From: Blastocatellia bacterium
GTDB lineage: Bacteria; Acidobacteriota; Blastocatellia; HR10
Length of the DNA: 64,000 nucleotides
Direction of reading: 5' to 3'
NCBI GenBank assembly: GCA_025055075.1
Contig: JANWYV010000006.1
Span: 1 to 64,000, forward strand
Part shown: one piece after another, positions 9,255 through 61,633 of the stretch
How positions within the stretch are numbered: position 1 is the first letter of the stretch
How the letters are laid out: every line of letters begins with the position of its first letter
The notes under the pieces: generated by a model
Told to the model about the DNA's origin: nothing
The model's database searches: none
What the model saw: only the letters and a program-made list of their open reading frames with translations
Translations under genes and position numbers: made by a program

Positions 9255-10418
9255 TCACGCCTGGCGAGCGAGGGCGACGGCCAGCTCCGCCGCTTCGCTC
9301 ATGCTGTGGGCGACAGTGATCGCCAATCCCGAATGCGCCAGTAGCTCCCGCGCGCGCTCGACGTTGGTCCCTTCCAGCCGCACAACGATGGGGACGGTGA
9401 CGCCAATCTTCTGCGCCGCTTGGAGGACGCCCTCGGCGACAATGTCGCAGCGCACGATGCCGCCGAAGATGTTGATCAAGACGGCCCGCACGTTTGGATC
9501 CGAGAGCAAGATGCGAAAGCCATTCTCCACGCGTTCCGTCGTTGCGCTTCCGCCGACATCGAGGAAGTTCGCAGGCTCCCCTCCAGCGAGCTTGATGATG
9601 TCCATCGTCGCCATGGCTAGGCCGGCGCCATTGACCATGCAGCCGATGGTGCCGTTCAGCTTGATGTAGTTCAAGTCATACCGGGAGGCCTCCACCTCCA
9701 GTGGCTCCTCCTCGTTCACATCGCGCAGTTCCGCATACTCCGGATGTCGAAACAACGCATTATCATCGAAGGTGACCTTAGCATCGAGGGCATAGAGGCG
9801 TCCATCCTCGGTCACCACAAGGGGGTTCACTTCGACGAGCGAGGCATCGAGTTCGACGAAGGCGCGATAGAGGCCGAGGATGAAGCGCACGGCGGGCCCA
9901 AGTTGCTCGGCCGTGAAGCCGAGTGCGAAAGCGAGCCTGCGCGCCTGATAGGGTTGGAGGCCGAGCGTTGGATGGGCGTGCTCTTTGAAGATCAGTTCGG
10001 GCGAGCGCTGCGCGATCTCCTCGATGTCCATGCCGCCGGCTGGGCTCGCCATGAAGACCGGACAGCGCGCCGCGCGATCTAAGATGACCCCCAAGTAGAG
10101 TTCTCGCCGAATGGGCAGGGCCTCTTCGATGAGAAGGGTACGCACCACTCGACCTTGGGGTCCCGTTTGGGGCGTCACCAAGGTCATCCCCAGCATCTCA
10201 CGCGCCAGCTCATAGGCGCGCTCCGGTGAATCGGCCAGACGAATCCCTCCGGCCTTCCCTCGCCCCCCCGCGTGAATCTGCGCTTTCACGACGACGCGTC
10301 CGCCGAGCTTTTCAGCCACGGCGCGCGCAGCGTCCGGCGTGGTGATCGCTTCTCCGCGAGGGATCGCCACGCCATAGCGTTTGAGCAGCTCTTTCGCTTG
10401 ATATTCGTGTATTCGCAT
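9255..10418 (-). CDS. sucC: Succinyl-CoA ligase [ADP-forming] subunit beta
   Basis: 387 aa, standard length. The N-terminus [16 protein letters not shown] and the ATP-grasp fold are typical. The [14 protein letters not shown] nucleotide loop and the [11 protein letters not shown] motif are present, and the C-terminal CoA-ligase part contains [13 protein letters not shown]-cycle step between succinyl-CoA and succinate with nucleotide phosphorylation. AAGGAG lies 7 nt before the ATG. The alpha subunit gene (sucD) is not adjacent: downstream is the helicase gene on the same strand. Confidence 0.95.
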
Positions 10419-32914: not shown

Positions 32915-33577
32915 TCATGGAGGACGCGTCTTTTCGGGTTGGGATCGAACGTCGAGCGGAAGTTGCCGGACGCCTCGGAAAGAAAGGCGGTGGAGGGGAC
33001 ACGGGCCGAGTCGCGCGAGCGCGTCTCGATGCGCTGGCGTGCCGTAGCCCACGTGTTGGGCGAAGCCGTAGCCGGGGTAAAGCCGATCGTATGCTCGCAT
33101 GAGGCGATCGCGCGTGACCTTGGCGATGATCGAGGCCGCGGCGATGGAGACTGAAATTTGGTCTCCGCGGATGAGCGCTCGGCCAGGGATCCCCACATCG
33201 TCGAGCTTCACGGCATCGATGAGCAGAAAGTCGGGGCGGGGGTGAAGCCCTTCGATCGCCTGCCGCATGGCGCGTTTGGTGGCGTGCAAGATGTTCGTGC
33301 GGTCAATCTCACGCGCGTCCACGATCCCGAGGGCGATGGCGCGAGCCGTGTTCGAAATCGCTTGAAAGAGTTGCTCTCGGCGGCTTGGTGAGAGGCGTTT
33401 GGAATCATCCAGGCCCTCGGGCAAGCGATCGAGATCGAGGATCACAGCGGCCGCCACCACCGGCCCAGCCCAAGCGCCGCGTCCGACCTCATCCACGCCG
33501 GCGATGAGCCGGTAGCCGAGGCGATTCAGTTCTCGTTCCAGCGTCGCCGTGCACGTCTGCGGTCGTCGTCGTTTCAT
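32915..33577 (-). CDS. rnhB: Ribonuclease HII
   Basis: 220 aa, normal length. The catalytic core GVDEVGRGAWAGPV (DE pair), DDSKRLS and a later LLIDAVKLDD supply the four acidic metal ligands. Degrades RNA in RNA-DNA hybrids and removes misincorporated ribonucleotides. Convergent with the peptide array. Confidence 0.95.
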   Translation of the reverse strand: MKRRRPQTCTATLERELNRLGYRLIAGVDEVGRGAWAGPVVAAAVILDLDRLPEGLDDSKRLSPSRREQLFQAISNTARAIALGIVDAREIDRTNILHATKRAMRQAIEGLHPRPDFLLIDAVKLDDVGIPGRALIRGDQISVSIAAASIIAKVTRDRLMRAYDRLYPGYGFAQHVGYGTPAHRDALARLGPCPLHRLSFRGVRQLPLDVRSQPEKTRPP

Positions 33578-56101: not shown

Positions 56102-57286
56102 ATGGTGATTGATGGCATTCTCTTAGCCGCAGGGCTCTCGCGACGGTTCGGACGTCCGAAGCAGCTTGCGGAATGGCGAGGGAAACCGCTTGTCGCACAT
56201 GTTGCGGAGACGGCTTTGGCCTCGCGGCTGCGGCACGTCATCGTCGTTCTTGGCTATGCCGCTCATGACGTTCGTCGAGCGCTCGCATCGCTTCTTCGCG
56301 ATCCGCGTCTTCGCATCGTCTTCAATGCCGAGTATGAGGAAGGGCAGGCCAGTTCCATTCGTCGCGGGTTGCGCGCGCTCGAGCCGGGCGCCGAGGCAGC
56401 GATGTTTCTGACGTGCGATCAACCATTGCTGACGCCGTCCATGTTGAACGCGCTCATTGACGCTTTCGCCGCGCATCGTCCGCTCATCTGCTATCCCGTG
56501 CACGAGGGGGTGCGCGGAAGTCCCGTGATCTTCTCCGCCGAACTGTTCCCGGAGCTGATGGCGCTGTCGGGAGATGTCGGGGGACGCGTTCTGATCGAGA
56601 AGTATCGCGCGCGCGTGCACGAGCAGAAGATCCCCTCGGCCAGGCCGCTCGCCGACGTTGATACGCCCGCCGATTTGCTGGCTCTCGACAGCGAAAGTCC
56701 CCTCTGTGGCTTCGGCGAGGAATCGAATGTCCCCCCCACGTCCGAGCGCTCGAGAGCAGCGCCGCGGGAATTTCAGCAGTCGCTTCTTCCGTTTCCCGAT
56801 CGCGAGGAGGACCGTGCCGATGTCCTCATCGTCTGCGACGGGAGTAGTCAGCGGTTGTCTTCGGGAGAGCGCCGCGCGGCGGCCGCAGCGATTGTGAAAC
56901 GAGGTGCGGAGATGGCGATCTACGGGGAGTATCTCGGCGCGGCGACCAATCAGCAAGCGGAGATCGTCGCCGCCTGCCTAGGTCTGGAAGCGCTCGCTCA
57001 ACCCGCGCGCGTGCGTCTCATCACGGATTCCCAATACGTGGTTCGCACGATGCGGGGGATTTACAAACGGCAGGCCAACCTCGCTTTTTGGGATCGTTTG
57101 GAGCGCGCGGCCAAGCCCCATGAGGTGATATGGACGTGGATGCGAGGACACGCGGGACATCCGTTGCAAGAGATCTGCGATCGCGCTGCCCGACTCATCG
57201 CTCGGGAAGGTCGGGTGGATTCGGAGAAATTGCTCGCGCTTCTTGACCGTCACTCGCCGAAGCCCGTATCGGACGAGACCCCGTGA
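56102..57286 (+). CDS. MocA-like nucleotidyltransferase fused to RNase H
   Basis: 394 aa. Residues 1-195 form a MocA/MobA-type nucleotidyltransferase: ILLAAGLSRRFGRPKQL loop, then TCDQPLL and DVDTPAD. After a linker of about 40 residues, residues 240-380 form a type 1 RNase H fold with all catalytic acids visible: D246 (VCDGSS), E287 (QQAEIVA), D309 (ITDSQYV), D360 (EICDRAA), and the GHAGHP segment. No stop or ribosome site separates the halves. Such a fusion of cofactor synthesis with an RNA-DNA hybrid nuclease is unusual. Confidence 0.85.
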   Translation: MVIDGILLAAGLSRRFGRPKQLAEWRGKPLVAHVAETALASRLRHVIVVLGYAAHDVRRALASLLRDPRLRIVFNAEYEEGQASSIRRGLRALEPGAEAAMFLTCDQPLLTPSMLNALIDAFAAHRPLICYPVHEGVRGSPVIFSAELFPELMALSGDVGGRVLIEKYRARVHEQKIPSARPLADVDTPADLLALDSESPLCGFGEESNVPPTSERSRAAPREFQQSLLPFPDREEDRADVLIVCDGSSQRLSSGERRAAAAAIVKRGAEMAIYGEYLGAATNQQAEIVAACLGLEALAQPARVRLITDSQYVVRTMRGIYKRQANLAFWDRLERAAKPHEVIWTWMRGHAGHPLQEICDRAARLIAREGRVDSEKLLALLDRHSPKPVSDETP

Positions 57287-57299
57287 AGGCGCCTCTCGG

Positions 57300-58025
57300 T
57301 CATGCGCCCCGCCGATTGCGCCGATTGGCGATCTCCTGCCGCAACGTCTCCAGGATGTGCGCTCCAGGAGCGATCTCCTCCAGTCGCTTGAGCGTGGCCT
57401 CAGCCTCGTCCAGCTCGCCCTTCTCCGTCAGCGCGACGATGAGATTGTGCAAGGCCTGTGGATGCTTCGGATCCGCGGCGAGCGCTCGCCGATATTCGGC
57501 GATCGCGCGATCCAGGTCGCGCGGCTGTCGCTTGTAGAACGTGAGGCCATAATCCGTGCGCACGTTCACGTCATTCGGCTTGTGCGCGAGAGCGCGTTCG
57601 TACCATCGGCTCGCTTCCTGGAAGTGGGCGTTCGATTGCGCCGTGTCCTGATGCTGCAGGTAGTGATCGCCGAGGTCGAAATGAACGTTCCCCAATTGAA
57701 CGAGCGTATTGTAGTCGTCGGGTCGGAGCGCGTTAGCGCGCTCGAAGTATTTCAATGCTTGCTCCAACCGCCCAGCTCGATAAAGCACTGTCGCCGCCGT
57801 GACCTGCGCGTCGAAGTTCTGTGGTTGCGCATCGGCTCGCTGCACCGATTGCGTGATCTCGGCTTCGTTCACGCCGATCGGAGGATGTCCCGGAGGTAAT
57901 TCCCCCATCGCAGTGGAGGAGGGCGACGGAGCGTTCGCTCGATTGTAATGGTTCGCGTAGAAGAAGCCCGCGATGAAGCCGACCAAAAGCCCGATGATGC
58001 CAAAGTAGATGCTCTGCAGCTTCAT
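57300..58025 (-). CDS. Membrane-anchored TPR protein
   Basis: 241 aa from ATG 58025 (GGAGGG upstream). N-terminal helix (SIYFGIIGLLVGFIAGFFY) as membrane anchor, then TPR repeats (residues about 80-235), for example EQALKYFERANALRPDD and DRAIAEYRRALAADPKH. Resembles TPR parts of cytochrome-maturation or assembly proteins. Divergent from the RfbC-like gene. Confidence 0.82.
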   Translation of the reverse strand: MKLQSIYFGIIGLLVGFIAGFFYANHYNRANAPSPSSTAMGELPPGHPPIGVNEAEITQSVQRADAQPQNFDAQVTAATVLYRAGRLEQALKYFERANALRPDDYNTLVQLGNVHFDLGDHYLQHQDTAQSNAHFQEASRWYERALAHKPNDVNVRTDYGLTFYKRQPRDLDRAIAEYRRALAADPKHPQALHNLIVALTEKGELDEAEATLKRLEEIAPGAHILETLRQEIANRRNRRGA

Positions 58026-58049
58026 TTCCCGTCCCTCCTTCAAGAGGTC

Positions 58050-58055
58050 ATTATA
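58050..58055 (-). promoter_or_regulatory. Perfect -10 of the TPR gene promoter
   Basis: TATAAT on the minus strand, 24 nt before the start codon. The -35 is unclear. Confidence 0.45.
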
Positions 58056-58114
58056 CCGCGTGGGGGCATCGGACGCCATCGTTTCGTCCGCGCGCTTGGC
58101 GCGCAGGCGCCGGT

Positions 58115-58182: not shown

Positions 58183-58638
58183 ATGATCGAAGGCGTGAGG
58201 GTGAAACCGCTGCGCATGATCCCCGATGAGCGAGGGCGCTTGATGGAATTGCTTCGGGCGGATGACGAGATCTTCATCAAATTCGGCCAGGTGTACATGA
58301 CGACCGTTTATCCCGGCGTGGTGAAGGCGTGGCATTATCACAAGAAGCAATACGACAACTTCGTCGCCATCCGTGGGATGATCAAGCTCGTGCTCTACGA
58401 CGCTCGCGAAGGTTCGCCCACACAGGGGGAGATCAACGAATTCTTCATCGGGGATTGGAACCCGCAGCTCGTGCAGATTCCTCCCGGCGTCTATCACGGC
58501 TTCAAGTGTATCAGCGAGACGGAGGCGATCGTCATCAACATTCCGACCGAGGTCTATAACTACGCCCAGCCGGACGAGTATCGGCTCGATCCGCACAAGG
58601 GAGGGATTCCCTATGATTGGGCGAGGAAGGACGGATGA
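58183..58638 (+). CDS. RfbC-like dTDP-sugar epimerase/isomerase family cupin
   Basis: 151 aa. A double-stranded beta-helix with AWHYHKKQYDNF and IPPGVYHGFK, as in RfbC (dTDP-4-dehydrorhamnose 3,5-epimerase), but slightly shorter than typical RfbC and without other rhamnose genes nearby. Could be a related nucleotide-sugar ketoisomerase. ATG 58183 follows AAAGGAG. The M16 gene starts inside its 3' end. Confidence 0.78.
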   Translation: MIEGVRVKPLRMIPDERGRLMELLRADDEIFIKFGQVYMTTVYPGVVKAWHYHKKQYDNFVAIRGMIKLVLYDAREGSPTQGEINEFFIGDWNPQLVQIPPGVYHGFKCISETEAIVINIPTEVYNYAQPDEYRLDPHKGGIPYDWARKDG

Positions 58639-61633
58639 GGGACGCGCCTTCGAGGTCGTTCGGCGAAGCGCTCTTCGTGGGTGTGCGCTCGCGCTCGCGG
58701 GGCTTATTGGGATCACGGCTTTCGGAGGATCGAGCGCGGTGATGGCGCAGGCCGGACGGCGGCGACAACCGCCGCCTCCCCCGAAGGTCGAGGAGAAACA
58801 CACGCCACCGACTGAGGAGAAGCCCGCGGCTCCGACGGTAAAAAAGGGCGCCGAGATCGCCGAGGAGCTGACTATCCCGGAGCAGGCCACGACGCGCGTG
58901 CGATTGCGCAATGGGCTGACGCTCATTGTGCGAGAACGCTATCGGTTTCCGCTCGTGGGAATCGCTGTGGTGGTGAAGACGGAGCGTTCGGGACAGCCGG
59001 CGGGGATCGCTCGGCTCGTCGGGCGCTTGCTCTTTCGCGGGACATCGGCGCGCCCCGGTCTGCGAGCGTTGGAGGAGCTTCGCGCGCTCGGCGGTGAGCT
59101 GATTGTGGAGGAGCAAGCTGATCACACGCTCTTTCGGATGACCGTTCCCCCGGAACTGATCCGCCGGGTTCTCGATCTCTTCGCCGATGGGCTCCAACAT
59201 CCCAGCTTCGAGGAGGCGGCAGTGCGGCAGGAGATCGAGCGACTCCTTCAAGAAGAGCGCGTGCGGTCGGATCGGCCCGAGCTGTTCGCGCGCGATCGGG
59301 CGCACGCGCTCGCGCGAGGAGAATCGCTGCTCCTCGAGCAAGAGAGTGCGCTGCGCGCGCTCTCGCGAGAGGCCATCGCCGATTTCCATCGGCAGTACTA
59401 TCGAGGCGAGCGGATGGTGATTGCGCTCGTTGGCGCCGTCAACACGCCGGACATCGTGGCGGACGTGCAACGCCTCTTCGGCGATCTGCCATACGTTGAG
59501 AGGAAAGCCGAGCCCTCACCGCAAGCGCAAGCGTCGGGGGAGTCGCGCTCGGAGGAGGTGAAAGCTTCAGAAATGAAAGCTTCAGCCCCTGGTGCCCAAG
59601 AGAACGCTTCTTCGGCCGCGCCGTCTTCGAGCTTGCGCTATGGTGAGGATCGCGGCGATCTCCTTCCGGCGATCATGACCTTCTGGCACGAAGTCCCGGA
59701 CGGGATTATTTCTGGCGATCGAAAGGGAGATTGGCCGCTCTTGCTTCGTTTGCTGACGACCGTTCTCGCCCAAGGGCGCGCGTCGCGCCTCGCGCTCGGC
59801 GTGCGCGAGACGCGACGGGTCGCCGCCGAGGTCAAGGCTCAGCCCGTGATCGGAGAGCGCCGAGGAGCCCTCCTTGTGCAATGGCGCGTGGATCCGGCTG
59901 AGCGAGAGCGCCTCCTGTTGGCGTATGTGGAGGAGGTGGAGAAGCTGCGGCGTCTGCGACTCTCGCCCGGAGAGCTGCAGCGCGCGCGCGCGTTTCTGGA
60001 GCGGTGGTGGCTCGAGCGCACGATGACCTATGTGGGAGAGGCCACGGAGTTGGCCTTGGAGGAAGCCGCTTCCGGAGACTTTCGACGCGCGGATCATTTC
60101 GTCGCGCGCCTCGCGGAGATCACGGCCGAGCAACTGCGCGCCTTCGCGGAACGATGTCTCGACATCGGGCAGATGACGCTTCACGCGTATTTGCCGCGCT
60201 CGATCACCGGTTCAGCGGACGCTGCGGGGATCATGGCGCGGATCGTAGCGCACGTGCCGGGCGTGAAGGAGCGAGAGATCGCCCCTGAGCGCGTGGGGCA
60301 AAGCCCGGAAGTCCCAACCATGCCGCATGGTGAGCGTCGCGCGCACGAAGGCGAGGGGGAAGCGATCGTCTTCTCCCTTCAGCCGGAGCCCCTGCGCGAT
60401 TTCTCCGTGTTCGAGGGACCGCGCGCATTCGTGCGTGAAGATCGTTCGCGTCCGCTGTTGAGCATCGGAGTATTTTTCCAAGGCGGTCGGCAGCAAGAGA
60501 CGGCCGCCACGGCGGGCCTGACCGAACTGATGTTGCGCGCGATCCTTCGCGGGACGCGCGGTCGTGCGTCCCTCTCAGCGGCGGAAGTGGCCATGCGGCT
60601 CGAGCAGCTCGGCGCGGATATCGCCCTGGTCAACACCCCCGATTTCTTCGGCTACGTGCTCACGGTCCTCTCGCGGAATCAAGATTCAGCGCTGCGGCTC
60701 CTGGTGGAGCTTCTGGAGCGACCGGCGTTGGCCGATGAAGAGATTCGCCTAGAACAAGCGCGATTGCTTTGGGAGATCCGCGCGCGACGCGTGGATCCGA
60801 TCGAGCGTGCTCGCGATTTGGCGGTACGCGCGCTCTACGGGGATATGCCGTATGGACGATCGCCTCTTGGGGAGGAGGAATCGGTTCGTGCGCTCACGCC
60901 CGAGCAGGTGCGTGGGTGGTATGCGAGTACGATCGCGCGGCAGTTCCCCTTGGTCCTCATCGTCGGAGATACGGATGGATCGGCCTTGATCTCGACCATC
61001 GTCGCGCGAGAGATTCGCCGTCAGGACGTATCGCGCGCATTTCAAGTTACTCTGCCAAAGCCGCTGACGGAAACGCGCTCGCTCTCGGAGGAGATCGGGC
61101 AGCGAGCCATCGTTCAAACTTGGGCGTGGCTTGGGCCATCGAGTCTGAGCGACGATGAGCCCGCGCTCGATGTGTTGCGCGCGCATTTAGCGGGATGGGG
61201 CAGTGAATTGTGGCGCGCGTTGCAAGGAGCGTCGGCTTCTTTGGTGGAGGTCTCCGTGGAATCCCGTCGGCTCGGAGGGAGGATCGCCCTCACCATCGCC
61301 GTCGCGCCCGAACAGATGGCCAGCGTGCGTCAGCTCGTCGAGCAAGAGATCGCGCGCCTCGCCAGGGAACCGCTCGGCGCAGAGGTCGTGCAGCGCGCGA
61401 TCCAGCGCGCCCTCGTTGAACGCGCCGCGCTGTTTGAAGATCACACGGTGCTGGTGCTCGCCTATGCGCGCGCCTTCTTCGCGACGGCGCGTCCGCAACT
61501 CATCGAGCAGCAGACGTCGAAGCTTGGAGCGGTGACCGCCGCCGATCTGCAACGCGTGGCGGCGACCTATCTTCCCGTAGCTCGTGTCGCCATCGGCCTC
61601 GCTCATGTGCGTCCGAGAAGCAGCCGACCGTGA
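58613..61633 (+). CDS. M16-family peptidase homologue with degenerate zinc site
   Basis: 1006 aa. A signal peptide (about residues 20-46), a Pro-rich linker, then two M16 halves (residues 90-530 and 600-1000). The alignment block LVGRLLFRGTSARP sits where active enzymes have HxxEH: H-x-x-E-H reads R134-L-V-G137-R138. The second half (LTELMLRAILRGT) also lacks it. So it is probably non-catalytic, perhaps a partner or scaffold. ATG 58613 overlaps the RfbC-like gene by 26 nt, with GGGAGG 8 nt upstream. Confidence 0.86.
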   Translation: MIGRGRTDEGRAFEVVRRSALRGCALALAGLIGITAFGGSSAVMAQAGRRRQPPPPPKVEEKHTPPTEEKPAAPTVKKGAEIAEELTIPEQATTRVRLRNGLTLIVRERYRFPLVGIAVVVKTERSGQPAGIARLVGRLLFRGTSARPGLRALEELRALGGELIVEEQADHTLFRMTVPPELIRRVLDLFADGLQHPSFEEAAVRQEIERLLQEERVRSDRPELFARDRAHALARGESLLLEQESALRALSREAIADFHRQYYRGERMVIALVGAVNTPDIVADVQRLFGDLPYVERKAEPSPQAQASGESRSEEVKASEMKASAPGAQENASSAAPSSSLRYGEDRGDLLPAIMTFWHEVPDGIISGDRKGDWPLLLRLLTTVLAQGRASRLALGVRETRRVAAEVKAQPVIGERRGALLVQWRVDPAERERLLLAYVEEVEKLRRLRLSPGELQRARAFLERWWLERTMTYVGEATELALEEAASGDFRRADHFVARLAEITAEQLRAFAERCLDIGQMTLHAYLPRSITGSADAAGIMARIVAHVPGVKEREIAPERVGQSPEVPTMPHGERRAHEGEGEAIVFSLQPEPLRDFSVFEGPRAFVREDRSRPLLSIGVFFQGGRQQETAATAGLTELMLRAILRGTRGRASLSAAEVAMRLEQLGADIALVNTPDFFGYVLTVLSRNQDSALRLLVELLERPALADEEIRLEQARLLWEIRARRVDPIERARDLAVRALYGDMPYGRSPLGEEESVRALTPEQVRGWYASTIARQFPLVLIVGDTDGSALISTIVAREIRRQDVSRAFQVTLPKPLTETRSLSEEIGQRAIVQTWAWLGPSSLSDDEPALDVLRAHLAGWGSELWRALQGASASLVEVSVESRRLGGRIALTIAVAPEQMASVRQLVEQEIARLAREPLGAEVVQRAIQRALVERAALFEDHTVLVLAYARAFFATARPQLIEQQTSKLGAVTAADLQRVAATYLPVARVAIGLAHVRPRSSRP

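Follow-up and report, generated by a model that had tools for sequence, protein, structure and literature searches.

A single open reading frame of a Blastocatellia bacterium joins a MocA-like nucleotidyltransferase to a ribonuclease HI, and we propose, with a probability of roughly 0.8, that this gene arose when two neighboring housekeeping-type genes were fused in the stem lineage of a single Blastocatellia genus of uncultured Acidobacteriota and that its two halves continue to perform separate, ordinary jobs. The combination of a transferase of this type with RNase HI is new within the literature, phylum, contig and plasmid searches reported here; the kind of fusion is already known. The gene lies in a 64,000-nucleotide stretch of contig JANWYV010000006.1 that was analyzed as a whole (hereinafter the window; Table 1) and that belongs to a 3.02-Mb draft genome estimated to be 98.8% complete.

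The frame runs without interruption from an ATG start to a TGA stop. Its N-terminal half matches the Pfam family NTP_transf_3 (PF12804) at aa 5-168 with 141.8 bits against a cut-off of 27, and its C-terminal half matches RNase_H (PF00075) at aa 240-364 with 73.6 bits against a cut-off of 25.8, which places the two halves in the respective families; the relatives of known structure are the MobA/MocA-related proteins 2we9 and 3d5n for the former and E. coli-type RNase HI for the latter. Comparisons within the order were based on 10 genomes, 5 from the genus that carries the fusion and 5 others. The transferase loop LLAAGLSRRFGRPKQL and the RNase H residues D246, E287, D309, D360, and H350 are invariant in all five genus members, and a phmmer alignment with E. 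coli RNase HI matches E287, D309, and D360, the alignment beginning past D246. In one member (G001, L004), the segment aligned to window aa 348-353 reads PKHTGH against RGHAGH in the window, so that the histidine of the catalytic loop is kept and the glycine that precedes it is exchanged. The first-pass annotation had described a complete transferase loop and the residues D246, E287, D309, and D360 in a single frame, and the open frame, the Pfam matches and the invariance across the genus confirm that the two domains it named are correct and are indeed combined in one frame; a full-length protein is the predicted product. A structure prediction for the fusion from four sequences reached a mean pLDDT of only 38, which is useless for the linker or for contacts between the domains. 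A PADLOC search returned no match and hence no sign of a role in defense.

Table 1. Coordinates in the window of the fused gene, its parts and the two flanking genes used as synteny markers.
Feature	Position	Strand	Basis
Fused gene, MocA-like NTP transferase + RNase HI, 394 aa	56102..57286	+	One open frame; Pfam; in-frame homologues in 5/5 genus genomes
NTP-transferase half, MocA type, aa 1-195, loop LAAGLSRRFGRPKQ	56102..56686	+	NTP_transf_3, E 2.8e-41; best NCBIfam model TIGR03310
Variable linker, aa 196-239, invariant LPFP at aa 229-232	56687..56818	+	Amino acid identity, dN/dS, whole-codon indels
RNase HI half, aa 240-382, D246/E287/D309/H350/D360	56819..57247	+	RNase_H, E 2.4e-20; sole RNase_H-family match in genome
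Convergent TPR-repeat gene, synteny marker	57300..58079	-	Pfam TPR; 66% identical to its G005 counterpart, beside the separate RNase H gene
M16 peptidase gene, second synteny marker	58613..61633	+	Pfam M16; 44% identical at the G005 site

The fusion is full-length and in frame in every one of the five genus genomes, at 77-83% identity and with lengths of 394, 391, 390, 400, and 396 aa, and it was found only there. Among 396 genomes of the phylum, a full-length match occurs in two genus members (G000 and G001) and in none of the 394 others; none of the matches listed for 48 further genomes of the class covers both halves; and none of 998 matching plasmid records reaches 80% coverage of the query. 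A contig scan with near-exact peptide patterns, covering 84,980 species with one genome per species, recovered four loci, three of them full-length and all within the genus, a count that distant, independent fusions elsewhere could escape given the near-exact peptides the scan requires. Elsewhere in the phylum, a 385-aa open frame from a different family contains a MocA-like match (45%; G394:C15:811574-812140). The literature search found no report of a MocA-type transferase fused to RNase HI. Given that the genomes are in draft form, with 30-200 contigs each, that high-GC frames are open by chance more often, and that other frames spanning the linker are open in several members, an assembly error or a chance joining of frames had to be weighed. 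This explanation, which retains next to no probability, is refuted by the occurrence of the same in-frame join in five separate genomes, and the linker differs in length by whole codons and has a dN/dS below 1 throughout, which also speaks against an artefact.

Both halves of the protein are under purifying selection. Among the five genus members, pairwise dN/dS is 0.07-0.13 for the transferase and 0.10-0.22 for RNase H; for the linker it is 0.25-0.67, a range that is rough wherever G004 or G002 is compared with the other three, where synonymous change is nearly saturated (dS up to 2.3). Amino acid identity in the linker is 0.32-0.70 vs. 0.79-0.95 in the two domains. Such variability would also fit a stretch that is cut by a protease, and either cleavage in the linker or translation from an internal start could free RNase HI, so that one frame would yield two proteins. 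The only start codon common to all five members within codons 150-246, GTG-172, could be read in this sense, but it lies within the transferase domain and no strong ribosome-binding site is seen before it in the window; moreover, the 60 codons ahead of the RNase H motif CDGSS hold no in-frame ATG, GTG, or TTG in G004 and a single one (TTG, codon 192) in G000. The absence of an internal start near position 56800, a point that the first-pass annotation had proposed to check, is thus supported at the sequence level, with no start shared by the five members outside the transferase domain, and we consider the production of two proteins quite improbable.

The relatives of the genus provide the context for the origin of the gene. 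The fusion is absent from all five other genomes of the order: the two genes are adjacent in two of these, about 2.5 kb apart in two more, and represented by rnhA alone in one. In G005, which represents the sister genus and the only other one of the family, transferase and RNase H (71% and 64% identity by tblastn, respectively) are encoded by separate genes on one strand in different frames, with a gap of 31-88 bp depending on the RNase H start, followed by a convergent TPR gene and an M16 peptidase gene, i.e., the same flanks as those of the fusion. A gap of 4 bp separates the two genes in G007; in G008, they are separated by about 2.5 kb with an M14-peptidase gene in between, and the spacing in G009 is the same; G006 has rnhA without an orthologous transferase, and its nearest transferase match is a distant paralogue located on a different contig. 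In G008 and G009, the transferase orthologues (L045 5926-6462; L046 about 9343-9867) are 178 aa long, with the LAAG loop replaced by FVMTES/LVMAES; still located near rnhA, they are possibly decaying or repurposed. Because the corresponding site in G005 holds two individual genes, the join can be considered a lineage-specific fusion of neighbors. The first-pass annotation had named separate genes in relatives as a finding that would refute its reading, by showing either a lineage-specific frame fusion or an assembly error, and this largely applies: the former is what the sister genus bears out and the latter is contradicted by the five in-frame genomes.

In the RNase H tree, the five fused sequences form one group (support 100/99) nested in an order-level group (95/91), on a long branch of 0.49; the transferase tree is poorly resolved, with a single fused group that is weakly supported (60/74). 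The simplest account has the two genes fusing once, in the stem lineage of the genus. Under the scenario that we favor, a gene for a MocA-type nucleotidyltransferase would have lain upstream of an ordinary rnhA as its neighbor, probably co-transcribed with it; loss of the stop between the genes and of their reading-frame offset would have turned the intervening sequence into a fast-changing linker; and the resulting bifunctional protein would have been retained as harmless, or at most for shared expression, with each half keeping its old job.

With respect to the transferase half, MocA joins CTP to molybdopterin, yielding the dinucleotide cofactor of hydroxylases of the xanthine oxidase family, and its loop is of the LAAG type as opposed to the LAGG type of MobA. 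The window loop is of the LAAG type, and the best NCBIfam model for this half is TIGR03310 (MocA), at 160 bits against a cut-off of 186.45; given the missed cut-off, we infer the MocA function. The separate orthologues likewise score below the cut-off (157.8 in G005, 155.6 in G007, and 118.3 in G008), and since the adjacent orthologue in G007 reads LAGG, the loop by itself is of limited diagnostic value. Gene content points in the same direction as the model: the host genome contains four MoCoBD_1 matches (the large subunit of molybdenum hydroxylases) and one XdhC_C match, and strong scores are confined to two of the 12 NTP_transf_3 matches found in it, the fused half and a protein with the loop QAGGGSTRMGRNKA of the AGGG kind that scores 120.8 bits with the MobA/MobB model vs. 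74.1 with that of MocA. As this other strong transferase is MobA-like, the fused half is the strongest candidate for carrying out the MocA step in this genome. It is thus best read, on gene content, as the MocA-type enzyme that would serve the four molybdenum hydroxylases, with CTP and molybdopterin as its probable substrates; what sets it apart from MocA, besides the lower score, is the joining to RNase H.

The RNase H half resembles RNase HI (the rnhA product), which cuts the RNA strand of RNA-DNA hybrids, in its family match, its D-E-D-D residues and its catalytic-loop histidine, and differs from it in lacking about 13 residues that are present in E. coli RNase HI after the TDSQYV motif and in scoring 68.5 bits against the cut-off of 160 of the RNase HI equivalog model NF001236. 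The separate RNase H of G005 lacks the same residues and also falls under the cut-off of 160 with 82.3 bits. The host genome has a single RNase HII match, at window positions 32975-33502 (-), about 23 kb from the fused domain, which is itself the only match to the RNase_H family. The fused half is the sole RNase HI of the genome, with a predicted activity on hybrids.

No evidence of a functional link between the two halves was found. In the order, G006 has rnhA with no orthologous transferase, and RNase H retains its motif in G008 and G009, where the transferase loop is lost, so RNase H is independent of the transferase in the relatives. The earlier conjecture of a moonlighting nuclease or of a link to nucleotide metabolism accordingly finds no support, the observations being those of a fusion of neighbors; we infer that both activities operate in vivo and that the halves are not functionally linked. 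Conceivably, however, the join itself was selected, with one half targeting, stabilizing or regulating the other, for instance through a nucleotide or cofactor state that tunes RNase H, such that the fusion would be a new functional unit. Its maintenance in all five genus members despite free divergence of the linker and the prior proximity of the genes (adjacent in two of the order's five outgroup genomes and close to each other in another two) are compatible with this possibility, as is an invariant element in the linker; the variation of the linker in sequence and length and the independence of RNase H in G006, G008, and G009 argue against it, and we regard it as unlikely. The long branch of the fused RNase H and this element speak against a neutral reading, as they could mean that the join is used for something.

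The element, LPFP (window 56786-56797), is conserved in all five fusions amid an otherwise variable linker; the chance of an invariant run of four columns there is about 0.02, by simple arithmetic applied post hoc to 8 invariant columns of about 44. The surrounding stretch reads QxLLPF in two members and QTPLPF in one, and the glutamine is absent from the other two. With its glutamine, the stretch before LPFP in the three members slightly resembles sliding-clamp-binding peptides. One putative clamp-binding peptide, that of a MutL, is QPLLVP (PMC8744996). One might imagine that LPFP is a peptide that binds the sliding clamp or another partner and was acquired with the fusion, the cofactor enzyme acting as a scaffold that brings RNase HI to the replisome; the fusion would then have given the only RNase HI of the cell a new docking element. 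We consider this a guess and highly improbable: two of the five members lack the glutamine, no LPFP-like element precedes the separate RNase H in the five other genomes of the order, and the invariance of LPFP is too little for a claim.

Returning to a fusion of neighbors with separate jobs, the closest parallel is found in Actinomycetales, where MSMEG_4305/Rv2228c combines RNase HI with CobC through a highly variable linker (PMC7466739). According to that report, the two domains are functionally dissociated in vivo, growth and hybrid levels were almost unaffected by removal of the cofactor domain, and fixation by drift is the explanation its authors prefer, although the CobC domain of Rv2228c did influence RNase activity in vitro (PMC7466739). 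That truncation of the partner hardly mattered is a further point against a selected join, and by analogy the present fusion can most likely be read in the same way, with no special mechanism. The present case warns against deducing function from a fusion that is limited to one genus. Because the fused, adjacent and distant states of the genes all occur within one order, this fusion offers a clean and placeable example of the joining of neighbors, and it is the second case, after the mycobacterial one, of RNase HI combined with an enzyme of cofactor synthesis. Both proteins unite RNase HI, a variable linker and a cofactor enzyme (of vitamin B12 synthesis in the mycobacterial case) and both are restricted to one lineage, whereas in MSMEG_4305/Rv2228c the partner is a presumed CobC, RNase H is N-terminal, and M. 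smegmatis possesses a second RNase HI gene (PMC7466739), in contrast to the single one in the present host genome.
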